DNA from: Brachyspira pilosicoli
Lineage (GTDB): Bacteria; Spirochaetota; Brachyspiria; Brachyspirales; Brachyspiraceae
Reading direction: 5' to 3'
Assembly (NCBI RefSeq): GCF_019402445.1
Contig: NZ_SRZM01000183.1
Span: 1 to 12,800, forward strand
DNA: 12,800 nt
Part shown: positions 1 through 11,968 of the stretch, piece by piece
How the letters are laid out: each line of letters opens with the position of its first letter
How positions within the stretch are numbered: the stretch's first letter is position 1
Notes under the pieces: generated by a model
What the model saw: only the letters and a program-made list of their open reading frames with translations
Database searches by the model: none
What the model was told of the DNA's origin: nothing
Translations under genes and position numbers: made by a program

Positions 1-623
1 AAAAAAAAATGTTTAAAAATCTTGATGTAAAAAAAACAATCAGGCATAATTTAAAAAACTATAATACTCAAAATAATACAATATTCGTAGATAAACTTTA
101 TTTTAATAACAATATAAGAAACTATAATCCTTGGCATATCATAATACTTATAGATGAAAGCGGTTCTATGCTTGATAGTGTTATATATTCTTCTATAATG
201 GCGTCAATATTTGCTAATTTGCCTTATTTATCTGTGAAGCTTATTATATTTGACACTTCAATAGTTGATCTTACTGATTATGTTAAAGACCCGGTGGATA
301 CTCTTTTAAAGGTTCAATTAGGAGGGGGGACTGATATTGTTAATGCTTTGGAATATGCTAAAAAAATTACAACTATTCCAGATAAGACTATATATTTGCT
401 TATAAGCGATTTGGAAGATAGTAATGATTATAAATGTATGCATAACAGTGTAAAAGGTATTATTGAGGCAAGGAGTAAGATTTTTATATTAACGGCACTA
501 AATTATGAATGTAATGAATCGTATGATAAAAATGCTGCTCAAAAACTCTCTAAACTTGGTGCTAAAGTGGCGGCAATTACACCAAATAAATTAGCTCAGT
601 ATGTAAATGATGTTATATCATAG
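1..623 (+). CDS. VWA-domain protein of the MoxR/DUF5682-associated type, C-terminal part (5' end outside window)
   Basis: The frame is already open at base 1, so the first ATG (9) is probably internal and the N-terminal part is missing; relatives recalled from memory are nearly twice as long. Numbering from that Met, a conserved basic entry segment (FKNLDVKKTIRHNLKNY, residues 2-18) precedes a complete VWA domain. A full metal-ion-dependent adhesion site is visible: Asp49-x-Ser51-x-Ser53 (DESGS), Thr108 in GGGTD and Asp134 in SDLED. VWA domains bind Mg2+ and partner proteins. VWA proteins with this basic entry segment usually work with a MoxR-type AAA+ ATPase and are commonly encoded beside DUF5682 proteins. 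No signal peptide or membrane segment is seen, so it is probably cytosolic. The gene ends at TAG 621-623, just before a bidirectional terminator. The family call is secure; the partnership with the DUF5682 gene at 9567-11873 is inference. Confidence 0.85.
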   Translation, partial: KKMFKNLDVKKTIRHNLKNYNTQNNTIFVDKLYFNNNIRNYNPWHIIILIDESGSMLDSVIYSSIMASIFANLPYLSVKLIIFDTSIVDLTDYVKDPVDTLLKVQLGGGTDIVNALEYAKKITTIPDKTIYLLISDLEDSNDYKCMHNSVKGIIEARSKIFILTALNYECNESYDKNAAQKLSKLGAKVAAITPNKLAQYVNDVIS

Positions 624-656
624 TTAATTTTAGTGGCAAATTAATCTTATAAATAA

Positions 657-687
657 AAAAGAGACTCTATATAATAGAATCTCTTTT
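657..687. terminator. Bidirectional rho-independent terminator
   Basis: A near-perfect hairpin pairs AAAAGAGA (657-664) plus TCTA (666-669) with TAGA (675-678) plus TCTCTTTT (680-687), with one C/A mismatch and a five-base loop. A T-rich tract follows on either strand (684-695 on +, 660 down to about 650 on -). It lies between the convergent ends of the VWA gene and rseP and should stop transcription from both sides. Confidence 0.85.
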
Positions 688-705
688 ATTATTTTAAACC
701 TTCAT

Positions 706-2082
706 TTATTTAAATATTTGCGTGATGTCGTTTATTGTTATAAATATAGCAAGCGTTATTAAGAATGCTGCACCAAAGGCTTGTATTTTTGTAAGCACAC
801 TTCTATTGATTGGTCTTCTCATTACAAGCTCTATAAATGAAAATACTATCATACCTCCGTCTACAACAGGAAGAGGCAAAAGATTCATTAAAAATAATAT
901 TAAACTTATAGTAGCAGTAAAAGATAATATAGTTCTAATTCTATCAACACTAACAGATATTACTTGAGAAGAAAGCTGTATTATTCTTACAGGTCCTCCT
1001 AAATTCTCTCTTACTGATAGCTTTCCTGTAAATAAAAGTTTTAATCCATTTACATAAGAAACAATATATTTACCAGTCTCTTTAAAAGCTTCTGGTATAG
1101 ATTTTGGAAAAGGTGTACCCTCTATTTTTTCAACCTTTATAGGTGTGCTCATAAACTCTATACCTAAGCTTCCGTAAGTACCGTTTTTTGATTCTACAGG
1201 TCTTGGTATAGCTTCTCTTGTTATCTCTTTTCCATCTCTTAAAACAGTGATTGTAATTTTATTTAAAGCATTATCCATTATAAGAGGTCTGAAATCTGCT
1301 ATATTATCAGCATTTATATTGTTTACAGCTAATATCTTATCTCCATTTTGAAGACCAGCTTCCTCAGCAGCAGAACCTTTAACTACATTTTTGATAATTA
1401 AATCACCACCGAAATAAAATCCTAATGCTCTCTCACCGCTTAATGCTTTTAATATTTCTACAGAAGGTATAGATACATTTACTTTTTCTATATTTCCGCT
1501 TTCTGCAGATTTTCTGTTTAATGTGAAGTTGATGTTGTCGGCATTTTTTTGTACAGCTTCTTCATTTATAAGTTTTAATACATCATTGTCATAATTAACT
1601 TTAATTCCATTTACTGCAGTAATAGTATCTCCGCTTTTCAGGCCATATTCATAAGCTAATGTGCTTCCAGATTTGGCATGCATATATCTAGCATCTTTAA
1701 ATACGCTTATAGTTGGAGAATATAAATCCACTGTAGAAGGTATTGATACTAATATAACAAGAAGCAAAAAAGCAAATAAATAATTAAAAAATGGTCCTGC
1801 AAAATATACTATGATTCTTTTTAAAGGCGACATACTTATAAAATCATCATCTTCCACTTTTCCGTCTTCTGACATCTCTCCTTTAAACTTACAGTATCCT
1901 CCAAATGGTATTACTGAGAATCTAAAATCTATTCCTTTTATAGTTTTTCTAAATATTATAGGTCCGAATCCTATTGAAAAAGCTTCAGCCTTTATTCCTA
2001 CAGCTAAACCAGCAAGTAAATGCCCCATTTCATGGACAAATACAAGTACACTTAATAATATAATAGCACCTATCCAACTCAA
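706..2082 (-). CDS. rseP: Intramembrane site-2 zinc metalloprotease RseP (peptidase M50)
   Basis: This 458-residue protein has the usual length and domain order for RseP. The zinc site HEMGH (His17, Glu18, His21) lies in the first membrane helix, followed by PFGGYCKFKGE (59-69), a second hydrophobic segment (about 90-113), two PDZ-like regions (about 140-195 and 225-285), the GGPVRI motif (362-367) and the third metal ligand Asp408 in NLLPLPVVDGG. A last membrane helix lies at about 430-450. RseP enzymes cut membrane-anchored anti-sigma factors and signal-peptide remnants inside the inner membrane. The start is TTG at 2082-2080. An in-frame TAA two codons upstream rules out an earlier start, the next Met lies within HEMGH, and a perfect AAGGAGG sits seven bases before the TTG. 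It is the third gene of a leftward cluster but is 190 bp from tsaC, so it may have its own promoter. The specific substrate is unknown. Confidence 0.95.
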   Translation of the reverse strand: MSWIGAIILLSVLVFVHEMGHLLAGLAVGIKAEAFSIGFGPIIFRKTIKGIDFRFSVIPFGGYCKFKGEMSEDGKVEDDDFISMSPLKRIIVYFAGPFFNYLFAFLLLVILVSIPSTVDLYSPTISVFKDARYMHAKSGSTLAYEYGLKSGDTITAVNGIKVNYDNDVLKLINEEAVQKNADNINFTLNRKSAESGNIEKVNVSIPSVEILKALSGERALGFYFGGDLIIKNVVKGSAAEEAGLQNGDKILAVNNINADNIADFRPLIMDNALNKITITVLRDGKEITREAIPRPVESKNGTYGSLGIEFMSTPIKVEKIEGTPFPKSIPEAFKETGKYIVSYVNGLKLLFTGKLSVRENLGGPVRIIQLSSQVISVSVDRIRTILSFTATISLILFLMNLLPLPVVDGGMIVFSFIELVMRRPINRSVLTKIQAFGAAFLITLAIFITINDITQIFK

Positions 2083-2089
2083 TTTTTAG

Positions 2090-2096
2090 CCTCCTT
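2090..2096 (-). promoter_or_regulatory. Strong ribosome binding site fixing the TTG start of rseP
   Basis: On the minus strand this reads AAGGAGG, seven bases upstream of a TTG codon. It is the best Shine-Dalgarno match seen in the window. Together with the in-frame TAA between it and the TTG, it makes TTG the only plausible start. Confidence 0.85.
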
Positions 2097-2141
2097 ATAT
2101 TAAACACTATACTTATTAAGAATAATTACTAAATAATATAT

Positions 2142-2169
2142 ATTATATAATAAAATATTTCAACACTAA
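2142..2169 (-). promoter_or_regulatory. Possible rseP promoter
   Basis: On the minus strand a perfect TATAAT lies at 2147-2142, with a weak TTAGTG 16 bp upstream (2169-2164). It sits in the 190 bp gap upstream of rseP, about 60 bp before the start codon. TATAAT-like strings are frequent by chance in DNA this AT-rich, so support is modest. Confidence 0.3.
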
Positions 2170-2273
2170 TGTTTTAATATTTTTTTAAATTTGAAAAATG
2201 ATATATTATTTTTAATATATTTCAATAGGAATTATGTAAATTTATTTTTTATATAAATTAATATATTTTAAAA

Positions 2274-2864
2274 TTATAGATAAACACTTCCCTGACGAAG
2301 CACTTTATTATTAATGCAATCATATAAAGTAGAAGGAAGTTTTTTTTCGATAGTACCGCAATTGACAATAAGGTCAACTTTGTCTTTATATAGTTCTACA
2401 AGCTTATTGCCGTCATATATAACACCATAACCTGTAGGATTAGCAGAAGGAGCAACTAACGGAGGAGTTAATTTTAATAATTTTTCCATATAGTCATCTT
2501 TAGGTATTCTAAGGGCAACAGTATTTTTAAGATATAGAAAATCTTTTTTTATAATTTCTTTTAGAGGCATAATAAAAGTAAGTTCGCCAGGTATTTTTGC
2601 TTTCACTATATCAGGTATATTTCCTTCACATAATATATTAATAAACTTAGAATCTTTTAAAAGTATAAGAAGTGGTTTTTCTCTTTCTCTCTCTTTTATT
2701 GAATATATTCTATTAATAGCATCAACATTAAAAGCATCAGCCAACATTCCATAAACAGTATCTGTTGGAGATATTACAACCCCCCCATTATTTATAACTT
2801 TAGCAACCTCTTCTACAGCATATTCTATACTATCAGAATTATTTTTATCAAGCTCAATTACCAT
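2274..2864 (-). CDS. tsaC: L-threonylcarbamoyladenylate synthase (TsaC/YrdC type)
   Basis: The enzyme makes threonylcarbamoyl-AMP from threonine, bicarbonate and ATP, the first step of the t6A37 modification of ANN-decoding tRNAs. At 196 residues it is the single-domain TsaC/YrdC form, without the C-terminal Sua5 domain. Family motifs appear in order: PTDTVYG (33-39), KER (57-59) followed by KPL (63-65), PGELT (92-96), ALRIP (117-121), SAN (140-142), PSTLYD (177-182) and LRQG (189-192). The ATG start has GAGGA about nine bases upstream. It begins 20 bp after the stop of the degenerate GGDEF gene, so the two are probably co-transcribed. A run of seven G on the coding strand (plus strand 2780-2786) falls in the codons for Gly27-Gly28-Val29, just before the active-site PTDTVYG. 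The enzyme assignment is firm. Confidence 0.93.
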   Translation of the reverse strand: MVIELDKNNSDSIEYAVEEVAKVINNGGVVISPTDTVYGMLADAFNVDAINRIYSIKEREREKPLLILLKDSKFINILCEGNIPDIVKAKIPGELTFIMPLKEIIKKDFLYLKNTVALRIPKDDYMEKLLKLTPPLVAPSANPTGYGVIYDGNKLVELYKDKVDLIVNCGTIEKKLPSTLYDCINNKVLRQGSVYL

Positions 2865-2884
2865 ATAACTATCCTCATTATTAA

Positions 2885-3907
2885 TTACCTTCTAATAACA
2901 GTAGGGTGAATATATACTTTAGCAAAACCTCTTCTTTTAGCATTATGTAAAGCAAGAAGTGAAGGGGCAATTTCTTTATCAAGATTATCAAAATGATAGT
3001 TAGCTTTGTAGGCAGTATATGCTATTCCAGCAGATACAGTATATTTTATAACTATTTCATTATACATTATTTCATTTTTATTAACTAATTCTTTTATTTG
3101 CTCTATTTTATCTTCATAAAGTCTTATATCCATTCTCTTAAATGCCACCATAAATAAATTGGTGTCATATCTTGCTATAATGTCTTCTTCTCTTGTAGCA
3201 TTGATTAATACTTTAGAGAATTGTAATATTATTTCTTCTCCAGCCATTATTCCAAATTCTTCTATAATATCATCTATACCGTCTATTGAAAAAGAAGCTA
3301 ATATTATAGTTTCTTCATGTCTTACTGTTTCTGCTAATAATCTTTTAAATTGAATTAAAAACTCTTTTTTATTATAAAAACCTGTTTCCAAATCAATATT
3401 TAATATCTCTTCATATTTCTTTTGCGAATCTTTATAAGACTGATAATTTTTATTTGAAGTTTCAGTCATATTATTTAGAGCATTTTGTAGATAATCAATT
3501 TGTTTTAGAGTTTTTTGATGTTCTATATACATTTTCTTTTCTTTCATTGCATTATGAACATTAACTATAAACTCCATTTCATCAAAAGGAGTAAATACAA
3601 GCCCATCAATGTCTAATGATATAGCCTCTTCTATAAACTCTATTTTTTTATATGGAGTACTTAATAATATTACAGGTATTCCCTTAGTATTTTCTTGATT
3701 TTTAAAAGTGTCCAAAAGCTGAAGCCCTTGAGAATCACCTATATCAGCATCGATGATGATTAAGTCAAGAGATGTTTCATTAGATATATTAATAGCTTGA
3801 GAACGTGATTTTGTTGATATTGGGTTATAATGTCTTTCTTTTAATATATCAACTATTTTTTCTAATAGTTCTGCTCTATGTTCTATGACTAAAATGTTTT
3901 CATTCAT
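2885..3907 (-). CDS. Response-regulator-like protein with degenerate receiver and degenerate GGDEF domain
   Basis: The frame is open to 3994, but the receiver fold begins at the Met at 3907 (MNENILVIEH), so I take that start (340 residues); its ribosome site is weak. Residues 1-120 are a CheY-like receiver. The phospho-acceptor Asp53 is present, but the acidic pair is Glu9-His10 and the conserved switch Lys is Thr106. Residues 118-168 look like a coiled-coil linker. Residues 172-340 match a GGDEF domain (DLETGFYNKKEF at its start, SAGIAY and LHNAKRRGFAKVY near its end), but the catalytic GGDEF is replaced by DTNLF (248-252). Diguanylate cyclase activity is therefore unlikely; a sensory or protein-binding role is more plausible. 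It lies 20 bp upstream of tsaC and is divergent from the OmpA-like lipoprotein gene. The fold assignment is solid; the biological role is unknown. Confidence 0.85.
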   Translation of the reverse strand: MNENILVIEHRAELLEKIVDILKERHYNPISTKSRSQAINISNETSLDLIIIDADIGDSQGLQLLDTFKNQENTKGIPVILLSTPYKKIEFIEEAISLDIDGLVFTPFDEMEFIVNVHNAMKEKKMYIEHQKTLKQIDYLQNALNNMTETSNKNYQSYKDSQKKYEEILNIDLETGFYNKKEFLIQFKRLLAETVRHEETIILASFSIDGIDDIIEEFGIMAGEEIILQFSKVLINATREEDIIARYDTNLFMVAFKRMDIRLYEDKIEQIKELVNKNEIMYNEIVIKYTVSAGIAYTAYKANYHFDNLDKEIAPSLLALHNAKRRGFAKVYIHPTVIRR

Positions 3908-4065
3908 AAATAATACTTTTATTAATTTGATATATATATGTTTTAATATCGTAAATAAAACAAAATATATTAAATAAAAATATTCAAATTGCATGCTTAA
4001 AATATAATATGTAATTTTATAAAAAATAATATGAATATTAGAGTTTATAAATAATTATCCGATAA

Positions 4066-4071
4066 TATAAT
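4066..4071 (+). promoter_or_regulatory. Possible -10 element for the OmpA-like lipoprotein gene
   Basis: A perfect TATAAT lies about 40 bp before the ATG at 4112, in the divergent gap between the GGDEF-like and OmpA-like genes. The only -35 candidate is TTTATA at 4044-4049 with a 16 bp spacer, which is poor. Chance occurrence is quite possible. Confidence 0.28.
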
Positions 4072-4111
4072 AAAATTTAAATAATAATAAGTAGATAAAA
4101 TTAATTGTATA

Positions 4112-4714
4112 ATGAGAGTTTTTATATTATTGTTTTTGTTATTTTTTATAGGCTGCCAAAGTGCCGTTATCATATCAAAAGATTCCAATGAAGTAAATAA
4201 TAAAGAAACTAAAGAAAATATTACCAACGAAATAACAACTAATACTAACAGTGTTTATTATGTACAAAACACTAAAAGAGGGAAACTATTAATATTAAAA
4301 GACCCTATATTATTTGATTCTAACAGTAGCATTGTAAATACAAATAAATATGCAGAAACTCTAGATTATTTATCTTTAGTATTAAAGTCTACAAATATTC
4401 TTAATATATATATAGAAGGTCATATTGATTCTAGTGAAGTTAGATATATGAATAAGAATACTGTATACAATTTAAGTACTACAAATAATATATTATATTT
4501 ATATGATAGAAATAATGAAGTTGATTTATCATATTTACGTTCATTAGCTGTAGGAGATTTATTAACAGACAATGATAATAAATTAAAAGCAATAGGGGTT
4601 CAAAATTTAATAGACTATGGCACTCCTGAACAAAATAGAAGAGTTGAATTTGTAATAATAGAAAACTCTAATGATATGTATATGTATACCAACTATATAT
4701 ATAATTTATATTAA
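4112..4714 (+). CDS. OmpA-like lipoprotein with altered peptidoglycan-binding site
   Basis: The 200-residue product begins with a short lipoprotein signal (MRVFILLFLLFFIGC), with FIGC as lipobox and Cys15 as the lipidated residue. A Ser/Asn/Thr-rich linker (16-55) leads into an OmpA-C-like domain (about 57-185). Its landmarks are ILFDSNSSIV (66-75), IEGHID (101-106) and the closing NRRVEF (175-180). OmpA-C domains anchor the outer membrane to peptidoglycan through an Asp and an Arg that contact diaminopimelate. Here the Asp (Asp106) is kept, but the Arg of the LSxxR motif is Asn125 (LSTTN), so binding may be weak or altered. No clear Shine-Dalgarno precedes the ATG, but the lipobox fixes the start. 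The end overlaps the convergent dehydrogenase gene by 4 bp. Location at the periplasmic face of the outer or inner membrane is inferred from the signal. Confidence 0.8.
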   Translation: MRVFILLFLLFFIGCQSAVIISKDSNEVNNKETKENITNEITTNTNSVYYVQNTKRGKLLILKDPILFDSNSSIVNTNKYAETLDYLSLVLKSTNILNIYIEGHIDSSEVRYMNKNTVYNLSTTNNILYLYDRNNEVDLSYLRSLAVGDLLTDNDNKLKAIGVQNLIDYGTPEQNRRVEFVIIENSNDMYMYTNYIYNLY

Positions 4715-6267
4715 ACTTTTTTGTAATGGGCTTTAAAGTTATCGTCAAAATAATAAATCATATTTTCATCTTCTTTATGAGAATCATACCATACCTGAGC
4801 GAAGTAAGGATTTTTCTTAGCTAATATATCAAAGTTCCATGTGTAGTCAGGCATACATTCTTCGCACCAATGTCCTGCTTTTATAACAGTAAATGGAGAA
4901 GCTTCAAATTCATGACCTTCAGCACAAGACCATTTTAGCTTTGTATATAAATCTCCTTTAGTCATGCTGGTGCTTAAAAGTTTACCGCCTCTAAACTCTG
5001 CAGCTTTTTTAAGGTCTTCCAAATCTATTTCACTGTCTTTTTTACTTTCATCATAACCATGATTAAGAAGCTTAGCATTTTTTATATTGAGCAAAGCCTT
5101 ATAATCTATATAATTTCCTTCAGAATCTTTATTTTCAAAAAGCAAGTTAAAATCTTCCCATTTTTTAGGCAAATTATCAAAGTTTTCTAAACTTCCAAAA
5201 TATGCAATTATTTTTCCATCTTCATTATTTTTACGCCAATATGTTGGTGAATTAGGGTGAGGTAAAAGTCTTTGTATAGCGAAAAATGATATTAAAGATG
5301 GAGGCACTATTTTGCCTAATGCATAATACCAATGAGTTTTTCCTATTTCGTTCCAATAATCTGTAACAGACTCTTTTTGATATGAGAATAATTCTTCTAA
5401 TTTGTATCCGTCATAATACCAAAGACCATGAAAATTTCTTATGGCATTCCAATTAGGCTTCATATATTTTTTTGTAGAGCCACCGATTAGCTTAAATCCA
5501 TCATTGAATGTATCATAACCAATAAGTCTATTTTCTGCTTTACTTCCTAAATTAAAACAACCCTTCCAAAAATAATCATCTAAATTACCTTTAATATCTT
5601 CTTCAACAATTCTTTTCATTAAAAGTCCGCTATCTCTTGCTGTAGCCCATTCAAGCGGTGCATTATAACAAGTGTGAAACATAAGTCCGTCACTCATATT
5701 GTCAGTAAGCATTCTGTTATGAAGCATTGCAGTTTGTCTTATTATAGCTCTATTTTCTAATGATGAATCAAGAACATATCTTTCACCTTTTAGTTTAGAG
5801 AAAGAATAAGCATCATAAGGACTTATAAGTAATGGGTCTCCAACTCTTCCCCAAGGGTGTTTTTCGTTTCTGTTTCCATAAAGAGCAACTGTTGATATAT
5901 GAACAAGTTTAGGACGTTTGTCTTTAGGCATTTCTTCTAATATATCAACAACGTTTTTTACTCCCACAAAGTTAGTTAAATGTGCTAGTTTTGGGTATTT
6001 GTCAGAATTTGGCGGAATAACTGCAGCGAGATTAAGCACATAGTGGCTATCTTTTATTAACTTCTCAGAGTCTTCTTTATTATATAAATAACCTGTAACT
6101 ATTTCTACTCTTTTACCATATTCTTTTTTAAATTTTTCGCCTACTTTTTTGCTTTCTTTTCTTACAAGTATTTTTACAAGTTCAATATCTTCTATCTCCA
6201 TTAATTGTCTTAATGTTTCAAGCCCCATATTTCCTGTAGCACCTGTTAAGCTAACTATATATTTCAT
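4711..6267 (-). CDS. NAD(P)-dependent epimerase/dehydratase (extended SDR) with C-terminal treble-clef zinc finger
   Basis: The 518-residue protein starts with a Rossmann-fold extended short-chain dehydrogenase: GATGNMG (9-15) binds the dinucleotide, LNLAAVIPP lies at 79-87, HISTVALYG at 123-131 supplies the catalytic Ser/Thr, and the YxxxK pair is Tyr154-Lys158. Such enzymes act on nucleotide sugars or related alcohols; the substrate is not readable here. Residues of about 170-400 are less familiar. At the C-terminus a compact motif, Cys448-x3-His452 ... Cys468-x2-Cys471, with KLKWSCAEGHEFEA and AGHWCEEC around it, matches the treble-clef zinc fingers often seen in nuclease-associated modules. 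Such a domain is unusual on a dehydrogenase. The ATG lies 8 bp after the upstream gene's stop, and its AGGAGA ribosome site overlaps that TAG, so the two genes are very probably co-transcribed and possibly translationally coupled. The SDR call is firm; the physiological role is unknown. Confidence 0.85.
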   Translation of the reverse strand: MKYIVSLTGATGNMGLETLRQLMEIEDIELVKILVRKESKKVGEKFKKEYGKRVEIVTGYLYNKEDSEKLIKDSHYVLNLAAVIPPNSDKYPKLAHLTNFVGVKNVVDILEEMPKDKRPKLVHISTVALYGNRNEKHPWGRVGDPLLISPYDAYSFSKLKGERYVLDSSLENRAIIRQTAMLHNRMLTDNMSDGLMFHTCYNAPLEWATARDSGLLMKRIVEEDIKGNLDDYFWKGCFNLGSKAENRLIGYDTFNDGFKLIGGSTKKYMKPNWNAIRNFHGLWYYDGYKLEELFSYQKESVTDYWNEIGKTHWYYALGKIVPPSLISFFAIQRLLPHPNSPTYWRKNNEDGKIIAYFGSLENFDNLPKKWEDFNLLFENKDSEGNYIDYKALLNIKNAKLLNHGYDESKKDSEIDLEDLKKAAEFRGGKLLSTSMTKGDLYTKLKWSCAEGHEFEASPFTVIKAGHWCEECMPDYTWNFDILAKKNPYFAQVWYDSHKEDENMIYYFDDNFKAHYKKV

Positions 6268-6272
6268 TAATT

Positions 6273-6279
6273 CTCCTAT
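6273..6279 (-). promoter_or_regulatory. Ribosome binding site of the dehydrogenase overlapping the upstream stop codon
   Basis: On the minus strand the bases read TATAGGAG-A, so the TAG stop of the outer-membrane protein gene (6278-6276) shares bases with the AGGAGA Shine-Dalgarno of the dehydrogenase. The ATG follows at 6267. This arrangement favours translational coupling of the pair. Confidence 0.7.
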
Positions 6280-7850
6280 AATATATCATTTGTAATATTG
6301 TTGTTCAAATTGATATTATTCTCATTATTGGTATCCCCATTTGTATAAGAATATATAGGAGGTTCTTCTTTTTGTAAATAGTCAAATTTTGTAAATGCAT
6401 AAGATAATTGAAGTCCTACACCATTTACCCATATAGATTCTTGTTTACTTGTTACAGCTAAATCTAGGAATAAATCAAGGAATAATCTGTCTTTCCAAGA
6501 AAAGCCAAGTCCAGCATACATTCCTAATTTTGATACGAAATCTGTTTCAAGTGTTTCTATTATTTCTTTTTCAGATGTTTCTCTATATAAAGAATATATA
6601 TTCATATCTATTCCATATTTTATTCCAGCCCTAATTTCAAACCACTCTAAAGGTTTTATTGTAGTACCAACTGGTATTTCCAAATATGGAATAATACTTA
6701 TTGCATTATGAAGTATGTCGCCTGTTGCTATTAAATTACCTTCATCTATTGTATTATTAACATTATCATAAGTATTAGACATTACATATGTTTGACCTAA
6801 ATTAGTTATATCTAGTCTTAAACCTAATCTAGGCTCTGTTGTTAATTTTATTACTCTGTCTATAATATTCCATTCTAAAGTAGGGGCAGCACTAATATCA
6901 AAACTCATATTAAGATTATAAGTTTGATTGCTTTTAGCTAAACTTCCATTTATTACTTTATCTATTTCATTTGGTGATATATTAGTTGAGTTTAGAATAA
7001 ATCTATTTTGATTATCCTTGTAAAGGTCAAACTCTAATCCTAGATTGAAAGTTAATTTTTGCAAAGGTCCTGCTACTAAAGGCATCATAAACTCTGGATA
7101 AAATAATAATCTCACAGAATTATCAAAAGAATTTGTTGCCGTATTTATATATTGATGGCTTAATGTATCTTTAGTGCTACTATTTGTTTTATAATTTTGT
7201 AAATAATTATTTACTACTATAGCTATTGGTAAATTTAATCTCATATCATTATTAAAATTAATTGCAACAGCTATTTCATTATACCATTGAGAGTTTGTAA
7301 TATTATTTGTAAGATTAGCATAATTATCTGCATTAGTTTGATGATAATAAGTATATCCTTGATTAAGATAATATCCGCCTGATTTTGCTAATAAATAATG
7401 TATAGATACCATATCATTTATTTTGAATACCGGTCTAATAGCAAAAGAAGTATCTAAGTTTTTTTCTTCTCCAATTATTACTCTATCAAGTACAGGTATA
7501 TATTCTCTATTATAGTTCATACTTTGAGAATCTATAGAAAAAGCTCCGCTTATACCAAAATACATTTCATTATCTTTTATTGGTATACCAAAATATAATT
7601 GTGCTGCATTTTGCATACCATTTTTAAAACTAGGGGCATACATTCCTGAAAATAATGTTCTGTCTAAATCAAATATATCTTTTGACATTAATTTATCTGA
7701 ATATGAAGACATTTGATAAGCTGTTGATCTTTTTACAGCTGAGTTATCTAGATTAAATATAATGTCTTTAGTTGTATATAGATTTTGAGCGAACAAATTT
7801 GAAAAAGAAAATATAATTATAAAAATTATAAATATTTTTGCATTATTCAT
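6276..7850 (-). CDS. Putative beta-barrel outer-membrane protein
   Basis: The 524-residue product has a typical signal peptide: a charged start, a hydrophobic run of Ile and Phe (6-16) and a likely cut after Ala21 (NLFA-QN). The body to about residue 492 is rich in alternating aromatic/polar strands and in Tyr, Asn and Gly. It has no long hydrophobic helix, which fits an outer-membrane beta-barrel. The last likely strand (LQLSYAFTKFDYL) is followed by 32 residues, PPIYSYTNGD and an Asn-rich tail, so the chain does not end on the usual C-terminal aromatic residue. I do not recognise a named family; it may be a spirochaete surface protein. The ATG at 7850 has AGGAAAG a few bases upstream and a promoter-like sequence at 7880-7908. 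It is the first gene of an operon with the dehydrogenase downstream. Whether it is a porin or an adhesin cannot be told. Confidence 0.7.
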   Translation of the reverse strand: MNNAKIFIIFIIIFSFSNLFAQNLYTTKDIIFNLDNSAVKRSTAYQMSSYSDKLMSKDIFDLDRTLFSGMYAPSFKNGMQNAAQLYFGIPIKDNEMYFGISGAFSIDSQSMNYNREYIPVLDRVIIGEEKNLDTSFAIRPVFKINDMVSIHYLLAKSGGYYLNQGYTYYHQTNADNYANLTNNITNSQWYNEIAVAINFNNDMRLNLPIAIVVNNYLQNYKTNSSTKDTLSHQYINTATNSFDNSVRLLFYPEFMMPLVAGPLQKLTFNLGLEFDLYKDNQNRFILNSTNISPNEIDKVINGSLAKSNQTYNLNMSFDISAAPTLEWNIIDRVIKLTTEPRLGLRLDITNLGQTYVMSNTYDNVNNTIDEGNLIATGDILHNAISIIPYLEIPVGTTIKPLEWFEIRAGIKYGIDMNIYSLYRETSEKEIIETLETDFVSKLGMYAGLGFSWKDRLFLDLFLDLAVTSKQESIWVNGVGLQLSYAFTKFDYLQKEEPPIYSYTNGDTNNENNINLNNNITNDIL

Positions 7851-7879
7851 TGATCTTTCCTAACTAATTTTGTTGTATA

Positions 7880-7908
7880 AATATAAAAATGTCATTTTAT
7901 TATATCAA
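7880..7908 (-). promoter_or_regulatory. Probable promoter of the outer-membrane protein operon
   Basis: On the minus strand TTGATA (7908-7903) and TATATT (7885-7880) are separated by an ideal 17 bp. They lie 30 bp upstream of the start codon, in the divergent gap with clpX, and match the housekeeping sigma-factor pattern. Confidence 0.5.
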
Positions 7909-7994
7909 AATTTCTTATAAATGTAAATTAATAAAAAAATAAATTTTAATAATAATATAATCGTAATTTCATATTATAATATTTATAATTTCTA

Positions 7995-8022
7995 TTGAAA
8001 TAGTTTTATTTTAGTATAGAAT
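7995..8022 (+). promoter_or_regulatory. Probable clpX promoter
   Basis: TTGAAA (7995-8000) and TAGAAT (8017-8022) are 16 bp apart and about 50 bp before the clpX ATG. This matches the housekeeping sigma-factor pattern. No heat-shock operator is recognisable. Confidence 0.45.
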
Positions 8023-8075
8023 GTGTTAACTCAATTAAAAATACTTTAGAACATAAAGAATAAAGTTGGAGAGAT

Positions 8076-9284
8076 ATGTCTAAGAAAACTAATAAAGAAG
8101 CATGTGCTTTATGCGGAAGAGAATTAAAAGAATTAAGCAGATATATAGAAGGAAATGAAGGGTATTTATGCTCTGATTGTTCTGCCATAGCAAATGATTA
8201 TTTTAATGCTCATAGCAGTCAAAAAACTAATAATAAAAAATATGATATAAAAATACTTCCTCCTAAAGAGATTAAAGCTTTACTTGACCAGTATGTTATA
8301 GGGCAAGATTATGCCAAAAAGATATTATCAGTTGCTGTATATAATCATTATAAGAGAATAATGCAAGATAATACTAACAATGATGTTGAAATAGAGAAGT
8401 CTAATGTGCTTTTAATAGGTCCTACAGGAAGCGGTAAAACTTTACTTGCTCGTACTTTAGCTAAGGCTTTGAATGTGCCTTTTGCTATTGCTGATGCTAC
8501 CACTGTTACAGAGGCTGGATATGTGGGTGATGATGTTGAGAATATACTTCTTCGCCTTATACAAAATGCTGATGGAGATGTGAAGTTAGCTGAAAAAGGA
8601 ATAATATATATTGATGAAATAGATAAAATATCACGCAAGAGTGAATCGCGTTCTATTACAAGAGATGTTTCTGGTGAAGGAGTTCAGCAGGCTTTATTAA
8701 AAATAATAGAAGGAACAATATCAAGTGTGCCTCCTTACGGTGGAAGAAAGCACCCTCATCAAAATAATATAGATATAAATACTTCTAATATACTTTTTAT
8801 ATGTGGTGGGGCTTTTATAGATATAGAAAAATCTATTGCAGAGCGTACTTCAAAAAAAGGTCTTGGTTTTGCTGCTGAAGTTAATTCTATGGAAAACTTG
8901 GAATATGATGAGATAATGAAGCATATTGCAACTGAGGATTTAGTAAAATTTGGACTTATACCAGAGCTTATAGGAAGGCTTCCTGTTGTTGCTACTTTAC
9001 AAGAGCTTAAAGAAGAGGATTTGATTAGAATATTAAAAGAGCCTAAAAACTCACTCATTAAGCAATATAAAAAATTATTTGAGTATGATAATGTTGATTT
9101 AAGTTTTGATGATGAGGCTTTAAAAGTGATAGTAAAAAAGGCAATGGAAGAGCATACAGGAGCGAGAGGATTAAGGGCTTTATTTGAAAAGGTAATGCTT
9201 GATTCAATGTATGATTTGCCTTCTGATAAAAAGTCTATCAAAATAAAAAAAGAATATGTTGAAGAGAAACTAAATATACACTAA
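8076..9284 (+). CDS. clpX: ATP-dependent Clp protease ATP-binding subunit ClpX
   Basis: ClpX is the AAA+ hexamer that unfolds tagged proteins and feeds them to ClpP in the cytoplasm. The 402 residues contain the N-terminal zinc-binding domain with four Cys (10, 13, 32, 35), Walker A GPTGSGKT (115-122), the pore-loop GYVG (148-151), Walker [11 protein letters not shown] (176-185), the second pore region [15 protein letters not shown], the RKH loop (GGRKHPH), the ClpP-docking loop (KKGLGFAAE, here LGF rather than IGF) and sensor-2 GARGLR. All catalytic elements are intact. The ATG follows GGAG by four bases. No clpP or tig gene is adjacent, unlike the common tig-clpP-clpX order, so it is transcribed alone here. 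A small hairpin overlaps its stop codon. Confidence 0.97.
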
Positions 9285-9306
9285 AATTTTTAAGTGTTTT
9301 ATTTTA
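9278..9306 (+). terminator. Likely clpX terminator overlapping the stop codon
   Basis: ACACT (9278-9282) pairs with AGTGT (9293-9297), extended inward by an AAA/TTT stretch after one mismatch, and a T-rich tract (TTTATTTT) follows. The hairpin begins inside the last clpX codons. The stem is short and AT-rich, so efficiency is uncertain. Confidence 0.5.
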
Positions 9307-9313
9307 ATTATTT

Positions 9314-9382
9314 GCAGGGCTTTGCCCCCTGCGAAGCGTGCCCGTAGGGTAGCACCCCACTTCTTTTGCTGCCGCAAAGAAG
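9314..9382. repeat. GC-rich hairpin cluster at the outer end of the left repeat
   Basis: Three small hairpins follow each other in otherwise AT-rich DNA: GCAGGG/CCCTGC (9314-9319 with 9327-9332), GTGC/GCAC (9338-9341 with 9352-9355), and CTTCTTTTGC/GCAAAGAAG (9360-9369 with 9374-9382, one bulged T, loop TGCC). None is followed by a classical T-tract. They could be protein-binding or RNA-structural elements of a dispersed repeat, or serve as back-up termination after clpX. Confidence 0.6.
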
Positions 9383-9540
9383 CAAAAAGACTGCATTTTT
9401 GGATTAAAACACAAGCATTATTTTATATTTAATACATATTCCTAAGATATTAGCTATAGCATTTGCACTTTTTGCAACTTTGACGAAGTCCGCACCGCGT
9501 AGCGGCGGGAAAAAGAACAATAAAAAAGTTGATAGAAAAT
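9330..9540 (+). repeat. Left copy of an imperfect inverted repeat flanking the DUF5682 gene
   Basis: This copy matches the reverse complement of 11969-12171 in ordered blocks. The outer block tgcgaagcgtgcccg (9330-9344) is identical over 15 bp. The block at 9375-9400 (caaagaagcaaaaagactgc and on) is nearly identical. The block at 9441-9478 matches at about 32 of 38 bases around atattagctatag. The inner block aaaaaagttgatagaaaat (9522-9540) is identical over 19 bp. Between the blocks the copies differ by inserted hairpin modules, such as the GC-rich CCGC-rich palindrome at about 9490-9509. No coding potential was found in this 282 bp gap. Confidence 0.8.
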
Positions 9541-9566
9541 TATTGTTTAGGTATATACTAATATTA

Positions 9567-11873
9567 CTAATTAAATATTTTATATTCTTTCATCTTTTCA
9601 AATATTTTTTGGTCTAATAATATATCAGCTTCTGATTCTTTATTTATCTCTTCTGCTTTACTTTTATTATGCAGCTTTGATAAAAATAAAGAAAGCCTGT
9701 CTATTTCATCTGGTGAGAGATTTGTAAAAGCGTATCTTAAATTTGGTAGTATACTTAAAAAACTCTCTTCATCTTGCTTTTCTACAATAGTGTCTATTTT
9801 CTTTATTATATCATCATTAATAAATAAAATATCTCTTGATATAATAAATATTCCAGACAAGAAATAACTTATAGTATTAGCATCAGATGATTCTAAAAAA
9901 TTGCATATAATGTTAGAAAACTCTTCTGTTGTCATTCCTTTTAATTTATATTTTATTGCCAAACAAACTGCATATATATGTGAGCTTCCAAATGTGTTTG
10001 ACAATATAGAGTTTATTTTTATTGTGAAAGCTTCTATCAAATCAGCATTATTTAATATATTTGTGTAAATGTTTTTTATATGCTTTGAATATTTAATAGC
10101 TTCCTCTTCTTCTAAATCTTTTATATAATCCATATTGTTTATAGCACAAATAAATGTTGTGTTTAAAAGTTTTTTTATTAAATCATTGGCAAAAGATTCT
10201 TTTTTTATCATGCTATTATATTCAACTATATTTAATAAATAATATAAATTATATAAACATTCGCATAAACTTATAAAATTGCTGTCTTTTAAAATAACAT
10301 CTTCTATTTTTGAATAGTTGTTTACTAAGAAACCTTCTATTCCCATCATATTAGTTTCTATTATTAATTTTGAAATCTCGCTTGAATTTATATTACTATC
10401 TAATTTCTCTTTTATGATATTAATACAAACTTCATCTATAGTTACACCATAAACTGATTTATCTATTAACAAAGATTCTGCGTTGGTTTTATATTTATAT
10501 TTCCAAATCTCTCTTGCTAGGTTTTTATTAACTCTGTTAATATAATCCGGACCTTTTATTAGCCTACAAAAATCAATGTCTAAAAATCTTATTTTATGAA
10601 AGAATCTGCTCTTTTGAAAATGTGTATCATCTTTAACAATATCAAGTATAGTTTCTACTTCGCTGCTGTTGTCTAATTTAATTTTAAACTTTTTACATAA
10701 ATTTCTAAAGTCAATTATTACAGGAGGAACTGAACTTTTTGATGATACTTTTCCGTTTTTTATACCAGATAGCAGTTTGATAATAAAATCTATATTTGAT
10801 TTATTTTCAAAATTAATATCTCCTTTTATAAATGAAGTTTTTAATGAATCTATAAGCTCATAAACTCCTGCTGTGCTTTTGCCTCTTAGTTTTGAAAGAT
10901 TAACTGCCATATAGTAGGCGTTTATACAATCTGATATGCTTGAATTATTGTTATTATAATCTATATTTGAAGCTTTTATTATAAAATACATAACAGTATC
11001 TAAATAACTATTTAAATTATTTTTTTCTAGGCTCTTATAAACAAAATCATAGAATGCAGGAAACTCTATACCAGCCTGATAACCGTTTCTTCTGTCTGCA
11101 TCTTCAAATGAATATGGTATTAAATAGCTGTTAGCATTTTTTTTATTATATTTTTTTAGCTTTTCTTCTATATTAATGTTTTCTTTTAATTTAGCTATTA
11201 TGCCTTCCATATGAAAGCTTCCTATAATAACTAAAATTCTATTATATTTTTTTATGGCTTTTTTTATATTACTAGCCATAAAATATTCTCTGTTTCTTGT
11301 TTCTGTATCTTCTTGCTCTATTAAACGCATATAATAACCTAATGTATATACGCTTTTAAAAAACTCTTCTGATGTTTTTACTATGCCATTTATTTCAAAC
11401 TCTCTCTCCCAAAGCTCTTGAAATGTTCTTAGCCCTGATTTTTGCGTAAGTTTTTTTGTATAGTCGTTTATATCAAATTTTAAATCATCTTTATCATATA
11501 CAGAGCTTATTTTTTGATATTCATCATCTGTATTTTCTATCATAGAAGCAAAAGGCATATCTATAAACTCACAATTGATATTTCTTTTCGATGCTTCTTT
11601 TATTGCTACAAACTCTGGAGAATAATCTAAAAATGGATAGTAGCTTCTATATTTAATCTCGCTGTCATAGCTGGAATATATACAAAATGGTGCCTTTGTT
11701 TCTTCGTCTGTCATAAACTCCATTAAGTTGTTAGAATCTATTGGTCCTTCTATTAATATACAATCTGGATTAAAACTATTTATTACTTTTTTTAAATGAT
11801 ATGAGCAAGCTGGAGAATGATGCCTTATAGGTAATAGTAGTTGTTGTTTTTCTAAGTTATTTTTTTTTGACAT
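9567..11873 (-). CDS. DUF5682-family protein with TraB/Tiki/EreA-like N-terminal motifs
   Basis: The frame is open to 11930, but the added N-terminus (two copies of YCIII) looks unlike the family, so I take the Met at 11873 (MSKKNN), giving 768 residues. Neither start has a clear ribosome site. Residues 15-24 (PIRHHSPACS), 38-44 (CILIEGP), 103-108 (FIDMPF), about 192-200 (TRNREYFMA), 216-225 (VIIGSFHMEG) and 254-269 (YSFEDADRRNGYQAGI) match the conserved N-terminal region of DUF5682. The spacing of HH, EGP, RNREYFMA and GSFHxxG resembles the TraB/Tiki/EreA/ChaN superfamily of putative metal-dependent hydrolases, suggesting catalysis. The C-terminal two-thirds is helical and Asn/Lys-rich, with no recognised domain. 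No signal peptide is seen, so it is probably cytosolic. DUF5682 genes are commonly found beside MoxR ATPase and VWA genes; here none is adjacent. Enzyme activity and substrate are unknown. Confidence 0.85.
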   Translation of the reverse strand: MSKKNNLEKQQLLLPIRHHSPACSYHLKKVINSFNPDCILIEGPIDSNNLMEFMTDEETKAPFCIYSSYDSEIKYRSYYPFLDYSPEFVAIKEASKRNINCEFIDMPFASMIENTDDEYQKISSVYDKDDLKFDINDYTKKLTQKSGLRTFQELWEREFEINGIVKTSEEFFKSVYTLGYYMRLIEQEDTETRNREYFMASNIKKAIKKYNRILVIIGSFHMEGIIAKLKENINIEEKLKKYNKKNANSYLIPYSFEDADRRNGYQAGIEFPAFYDFVYKSLEKNNLNSYLDTVMYFIIKASNIDYNNNNSSISDCINAYYMAVNLSKLRGKSTAGVYELIDSLKTSFIKGDINFENKSNIDFIIKLLSGIKNGKVSSKSSVPPVIIDFRNLCKKFKIKLDNSSEVETILDIVKDDTHFQKSRFFHKIRFLDIDFCRLIKGPDYINRVNKNLAREIWKYKYKTNAESLLIDKSVYGVTIDEVCINIIKEKLDSNINSSEISKLIIETNMMGIEGFLVNNYSKIEDVILKDSNFISLCECLYNLYYLLNIVEYNSMIKKESFANDLIKKLLNTTFICAINNMDYIKDLEEEEAIKYSKHIKNIYTNILNNADLIEAFTIKINSILSNTFGSSHIYAVCLAIKYKLKGMTTEEFSNIICNFLESSDANTISYFLSGIFIISRDILFINDDIIKKIDTIVEKQDEESFLSILPNLRYAFTNLSPDEIDRLSLFLSKLHNKSKAEEINKESEADILLDQKIFEKMKEYKIFN

Positions 11874-11880
11874 TATTATA

Positions 11881-11910
11881 ATACAATATTTTTTTATGAT
11901 GATACAATAT
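11881..11910. repeat. Short direct repeat at the start of the DUF5682 gene
   Basis: The 9-mer atacaatat occurs at 11881-11889 and 11902-11910, 21 bp apart, directly upstream of the preferred start codon. A spacing of two helical turns would suit an operator or a promoter duplication, but chance in AT-rich DNA is possible. Confidence 0.35.
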
Positions 11911-11968
11911 ATATTAAACATTGCAAGCATAAAATTGATTATTTAATATATAGTTATTAAAGTTCATT

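Follow-up and report, generated by a model that had tools for sequence, protein, structure and literature searches.

Dispersed relatives of the Escherichia coli yeh genes in Brachyspira and a predicted TraB/TIKI-like domain in their DUF5682 protein

Contig NZ_SRZM01000183.1 of Brachyspira pilosicoli (RefSeq assembly GCF_019402445.1) carries at its left edge a gene for a protein with a VWA domain and, across ~9 kb of other genes, a gene for a protein of the DUF5682 family, which raises the question of whether two genes placed so far apart belong to one system. A reading of the sequence alone had supposed that they do, as partners of a MoxR-VWA-DUF5682 system. The stretch analysed, hereafter called the window, is the entire contig of 12,800 bases (C94 of the source genome, G000), in an assembly of 463 contigs that is 98.5% complete; the bases to the left of position 1 can therefore not be read in the source genome. 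We consider it probable (about 0.6) that the VWA and DUF5682 proteins are two of the six parts of a machine of the YehILMPQ type, and that they still cooperate in trans after dispersal of their genes. The six parts are a DUF4132 protein, a MoxR ATPase, the DUF5682 protein, the VWA protein, a SWIM protein and a small protein of ~95 amino acids (aa).

The identity of the two proteins was confirmed. The VWA gene (3..623, + strand) encodes a CoxE-type, YehP-like protein (PF05762, E 9.6e-40), and the DUF5682 gene (9570..11873, - strand) a YehM-like protein (PF18934, E 5.7e-84); chance matches are excluded by these family scores together with the presence of both genes throughout the genus. The 5' end of the VWA gene is open, so that the protein is short by ~177 residues, encoded beyond the contig start, compared with the 383-aa protein of the closed genome G006; full-length relatives from 27 loci measure 377-409 aa. 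Its translation shows the metal ion-dependent adhesion site (MIDAS) motif DESGS (153..167, + strand), completed by a threonine (330-332) and an aspartate (408-410), a metal site shared with MoxR-VWA metal chaperones of the NorQD type. The pattern D-x-S-x-S stands at the expected VWA position in 25 of the 27 relative loci, the other two rows having picked up an earlier chance match.

Arrangement of the genes in Brachyspira and in other bacteria

The loci compared were the best 80 by DUF5682 alignment, 69 from other bacteria and 11 from Brachyspira (L169 included); because they were found through likeness to Bacteroides and Brachyspira proteins, they are an uneven sample of bacteria. Outside Brachyspira, MoxR lies directly upstream of DUF5682 in 65/69 loci, VWA directly downstream in 60/69, and all three genes are directly adjacent in 57/69, with three of the 69 loci (L093, L101 and L151) ending beside DUF5682. 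Of these loci, 60 also contain a SWIM gene, 53 a DUF4132 gene and 32 the small gene; a 482-aa open reading frame of L089 that was labelled SWIM has no Pfam support, and the single L089 protein on which a DUF5691 profile was built has no Pfam match. Overlap of the MoxR frame with that of DUF5682 was counted in 64 of 65 cases, a count biased towards overlap because each frame was extended to its earliest possible start codon. E. coli K-12 has the order yehI (DUF4132), yehK, yehL (MoxR), yehM (DUF5682), yehP (VWA) and yehQ (SWIM), and five families match yehI, L, M, P and Q one-to-one by profile, with E values of 2.1e-79 for DUF5682 against YehM, 5.9e-120 for the YehP-type VWA profile against YehP and 2.8e-21 for SWIM against YehQ; the small-gene profile did not match yehK. 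The MoxR of the system matches AAA_5 and shares with the E. coli YehL subfamily the Walker A motif GEPGTAK[TS] and the Walker B pair EE, found in 31/31 MoxR sequences (e.g. L185:10465-11565), and the available text of PMC3893208 lists YehL among the MoxR subfamilies. In the same 31 sequences, alanine occupies the last glycine place of the Walker A motif. The adjacency of the three genes, and the yehL-yehM-yehP order of E. coli, bear out the proposal that VWA and DUF5682 are parts of one system.

In Brachyspira the genes are retained, and they are scattered, in contrast to the E. coli yeh cluster; the multiplication of DUF4132 and the ~95-aa partner are further differences. DUF5682 was found in 26/26 genomes and VWA in 25/25 (G114 being left out of the VWA count), such that neither gene was seen without the other in most relatives. 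SWIM is present in 26/26 (in G024 the match falls in two frames), the ~95-aa partner, which was aligned from five genomes and is cut by a contig end in G000, in 26/26, MoxR in 25/26 (missing in G005, an assembly of 990 contigs with 88% completeness, and found in part in G020), and DUF4132 in 25/26, with 1-17 matches per genome and up to 42% identity to the protein of the Bacteroides cluster. None of the 11 Brachyspira loci has MoxR or VWA beside DUF5682. When the five genes without DUF4132 were paired in the 26 genomes, 148 of the 252 pairs lay on different contigs, which in draft genomes may nevertheless be close neighbours if their contigs adjoin, and none of the remaining 104 same-contig pairs was closer than 5 kb; the genes thus do not form one cluster. 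In G000 itself, the system genes are spread over C94, C406, C191 and C286, with DUF4132 on other contigs. The separation of VWA and DUF5682 is 9 kb in the source genome, the shortest observed, followed by 12 kb (G006), 20 kb (G018) and 27 kb, and it amounts to 12, 210, 292, 347, 422 and 885 kb in six closed or large-contig genomes; in closed G006, distances of 268-759 kb separate MoxR, SWIM and the small partner from DUF5682 or VWA.

Since the distances run from 9 kb to ~0.9 Mb, the gap in the window is incidental. Comparison of gene positions thus does not support a local event in which the 9-kb spacing has a meaning; the two genes are unlinked in all Brachyspira examined and mostly adjacent in outside bacteria. 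The sequence-only reading had also left a choice between a split system and a second DUF5682 copy to the left of the window. A split is favoured and the second copy is not, because a single DUF5682 was found in the source genome, in which unassembled gaps could hide another, and because profiles found no MoxR, DUF5682 or SWIM around VWA, and no complete cluster to its left, in eight relatives read leftward over 7-16 kb.

In each of the phylogenetic trees of MoxR, DUF5682, VWA and SWIM, Brachyspira formed a single group that was joined by Bacteroidales, termite Treponema and Oscillospiraceae, with support for the joint group of 100/99, 81/93, 99/96 and 100/100, respectively. It should be noted that the trees, built from 22 of the 69 non-Brachyspira loci, chosen by us, five loci of other Spirochaetota and 7-9 Brachyspira sequences (the broken G006 gene being left out of the DUF5682 tree), are rooted at midpoints, that branching within the joint group varies between them and that composition is uneven. 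Other genera of the same family (G066, G074 and G148) have a distant DUF5682 type with VWA adjacent. The simplest reading is that Brachyspira received or kept one gut-type cluster, which would have been dispersed before its species diverged. Four of the genes lie close on the chromosome, with P values of 0.01-0.06 in five genomes that are closed or have large contigs but 0.92 in G021; the species being related and not independent, this is no more than a hint of one ancestral site. In the phylum sample, DUF5682 occurs in 32/296 genomes; DUF4132 and DUF5682 are both present in 28, DUF5682 only in four and DUF4132 only in one (Fisher P 7e-34), an association that amounts to about one event, as all 28 genomes belong to one family and none outside it has both. 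Pairwise comparison of pilosicoli-like genomes gave dN/dS values of 0.026-0.051 for MoxR, 0.058-0.086 for DUF5682, 0.095-0.181 for VWA and 0.144-0.158 for SWIM, which indicates purifying selection on the system genes in the comparisons made. The values of the window neighbours range from 0.028 (clpX) to 0.321 (OmpA-like).

The free interval of ~8.9 kb between VWA and DUF5682 holds seven genes, named after their families as rseP, tsaC, a response-regulator/GGDEF gene, an OmpA-like gene (whose protein scores under the Pfam cut-off), an epimerase gene, a gene for a 524-aa protein and clpX. The 524-aa protein (6276-7850, - strand) begins with a signal-like sequence and matched nothing in Pfam at E 0.001. 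Elsewhere, a gene run that includes a 341-aa MreB-like protein (named by eye) keeps its order in G000, G006 and G021, and rearrangement of the B. pilosicoli chromosome has been linked with mobile elements (PMC3532143, available text). In three loci viewed (L253, L254 and L255), the gene of the ~95-aa partner adjoins a gene that, by eye, is SmpB-like. The multiplied DUF4132 family has matches on C25, C38, C193 and C318 of G000, and G018 encodes an 845-aa protein (L045:16638-19175) in which PARCEL surface repeats (NCBIfam) are joined to a DUF4132-like domain; in that genome, the stretch from the VWA locus to the DUF5682 locus contains relatives of this gene and apparent arginine-biosynthesis genes. 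A second MoxR gene of Brachyspira (~330 aa; L236-L239) also stands, as judged by eye, without an evident VWA or DUF58 neighbour, and the loss of MoxR operons may hence be wider in this genus.

The N-terminal domain of DUF5682

The longest frame of the DUF5682 gene, stop codon included, spans 9567-11930, and a second in-frame ATG at 11873 corresponds to residue 20 of this longer frame. The latter is the likelier start, because residues 1-25 of the longer frame have a predicted local distance difference test score (pLDDT) below 50 and precede the conserved part. The domain that follows (11076..11855, - strand; ~residues 26-285 of the longer frame) is a remote relative of TraB/TIKI proteins by profile and by predicted fold. 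Alignment of its profile with TraB by hhalign gave 93.6, 96.5 and 95.7%, compared with at most 0.7% for controls and at most 1.5% for 60 column shuffles, and in a fold comparison its predicted structure was assigned to the TraB fold. Pfam PF01963 (TraB) was not matched, DUF5682 being the sole family reported at E 0.001, and the domain is therefore a remote relative and not a member of PF01963.

Five residues of the domain, His37, Glu61, Asp124, Arg214 and His240, are invariant in a 64-row alignment, and their order, His-Glu-Asp-Arg-His, is that of the TIKI/TraB/PrgY superfamily. On the - strand of the window, His37 lies in an RHHSP motif (11820..11822) and aligns with the histidine of the TraB GTxH motif, Glu61 in LIEGP (11748..11750) with the glutamate of VEL, and His240 in GSFH (11211..11213) with the histidine of GAGH. 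The first glutamate of the 2His/2Glu set, present in some TIKI enzymes, was not seen in DUF5682; TraB relatives have a threonine near that place. This part of the protein thus looks like a TraB-type hydrolase, its activity being a prediction from the model and the alignment.

Unlike other members of the superfamily, DUF5682 scores under the Pfam TraB threshold, is encoded in a MoxR-VWA cluster setting and carries a long helical C-terminal fusion. The C-terminal part (9573..10421, - strand; ~residues 504-786) consists of helices in the predicted model and appears alpha-solenoid-like; VIA-align retrieved mostly HEAT-repeat scaffold proteins for it, with Z scores mostly 6-9, a likeness that may be generic. 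Foldseek gave no match at E 0.001 or better for the whole DUF5682 model, sequence searches for relatives in the Protein Data Bank (PDB) gave chance-level matches only for DUF5682 and SWIM, and the proteins of the system came nowhere near any NCBIfam cut-off.

Other explanations of the gene pair

The same MoxR and VWA components could serve purposes other than a remodelling machine with a hydrolase. One of these is metal insertion, in which MoxR and VWA would load a metal into a client, as NorQ and NorD do, with DUF5682 as a non-catalytic metal-binding scaffold. NorQ-NorD is among the MoxR-VWA pairs with known roles (PMC13036017, available text), the system shares with such pairs a MoxR ATPase and a VWA partner whose metal site is conserved, and the available part of PMC8533742 discusses DUF4132 alongside MolR, which has a link to molybdate in E. 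coli. However, a TraB-like domain with a retained His/Glu/His set would be superfluous in a chaperone of this kind, and the system differs from NorQ-NorD, as described in the same available text of PMC13036017, by at least two further conserved partners (DUF5682 and SWIM) and in that no metalloenzyme client was recognised. Nor was a metal enzyme recognised among the neighbouring genes, for which no systematic search was made. MoaC, present in 19/26 Brachyspira genomes, was not found in G009, G015, G018, G021 and G022, all at least 90% complete, and these five of the 21 good genomes with the system all hold DUF5682, VWA, MoxR and SWIM, which weakens a molybdate role. This result speaks against molybdenum only and other metals stay possible; the metal-linked role that the sequence-only reading had entertained is, on balance, unlikely. 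That reading had also allowed for a role in conflict, and a defence system against phages related to the MoxR-vWA ternary systems would explain the combination of MoxR, vWA and a third protein, the core described in the available text of PMC7159879, as well as the multiplication of DUF4132, since recognition parts of conflict systems can be multiplied in this way. In the present case DUF5682 takes the place of the third protein, variable effectors were not recognised, and the genes are core-like, yehM being present in 5284/5426 E. coli genomes searched and the Brachyspira genes being kept even without linkage. Furthermore, seven proteins gave no PADLOC match better than E 0.0075, MoxR scored under the bpMoxR cut-off (22.3 vs 27 bits), and matches were found in 31 of 72,556 plasmid records (among the ten matches listed, eight are records >1 Mb) and in 1 of 50,697 phage records. 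This distribution, the rarity on plasmids and phages and the lack of a convincing PADLOC match make a defence role improbable.

The two genes might also have nothing to do with each other, their joint presence being due to chance, as their unlinked position in Brachyspira could suggest. We give this very little credence, as VWA and DUF5682 are adjacent in most outside loci and all six families occur together in Brachyspira, even though so few genomes of the phylum sample have DUF5682 at all. Still less credible is a recent local split, by which insertion of the seven intervening genes would have broken a cluster at the window site. The short spacings in the source genome, G006 and G018 agree with such an event, but MoxR, SWIM and the small partner are on other contigs here and hundreds of kilobases away in G006, and elsewhere in the genus 27 kb to 0.9 Mb separate VWA from DUF5682, with different neighbours around them. 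The wider genus thereby refutes this reading, unless the genes had first been reunited. What weighs against the two proteins being working parts of a dispersed machine is the DUF5682 gene of closed G006 (L041:6251-8589), which is broken into frames of 158 and 587 aa; decay and sequencing error are both possible, because the epimerase gene between the two genes (11952-13509) is also split into two frames.

The proposed machine

Taking the six proteins as parts of one dispersed machine, the most likely mode of action is cooperation of a MoxR-VWA motor with a TraB-like hydrolase. By analogy with NorQ-NorD, in which, according to the available text of PMC13036017, the VWA protein inserts a finger into the pore of MoxR and the motor twists its partner, a MoxR hexamer with VWA as adaptor would remodel a client, the proposed direction of action being that the motor pulls or twists a client brought by VWA and SWIM. 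The SWIM protein, which has a zinc finger and a C-terminus with a weak resemblance to tandem OB folds, may assist in locating the client, possibly on nucleic acid. DUF5682 would contribute a hydrolase or peptidase domain of the TraB/TIKI-like kind, carried by a helical scaffold, and would in this way couple remodelling to cleavage or maturation of the client. The role of client or sensor would best suit the DUF4132 proteins. A more tentative extension, which we consider possible and by no means probable, is that this six-part, ATP-driven remodelling and cleavage machine, with the hydrolase on a solenoid, the SWIM/OB protein as a reader of nucleic acid and the small protein as a cofactor, serves a core function, of which Brachyspira keeps the core genes scattered while multiplying the client family.

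In the literature searched, which left subscription papers mostly outside its coverage, the word DUF5682 was not found, and yehL, yehM, yehP and yehQ were seldom named together; judged by this literature, the TraB assignment and the scattering in Brachyspira appear to be new. The Yeh-type system is present in 97% of the E. coli genomes searched, yet it is scarcely treated in that literature. The TraB-fold assignment names residues to mutate, and therefore makes the question of what the system does testable in E. coli. The persistence of all parts of a scattered cluster is evidence from nature for joint action of the six genes in the absence of a shared operon. If the proposal is true, the machine would be important enough for Brachyspira to keep its core parts as scattered single genes.

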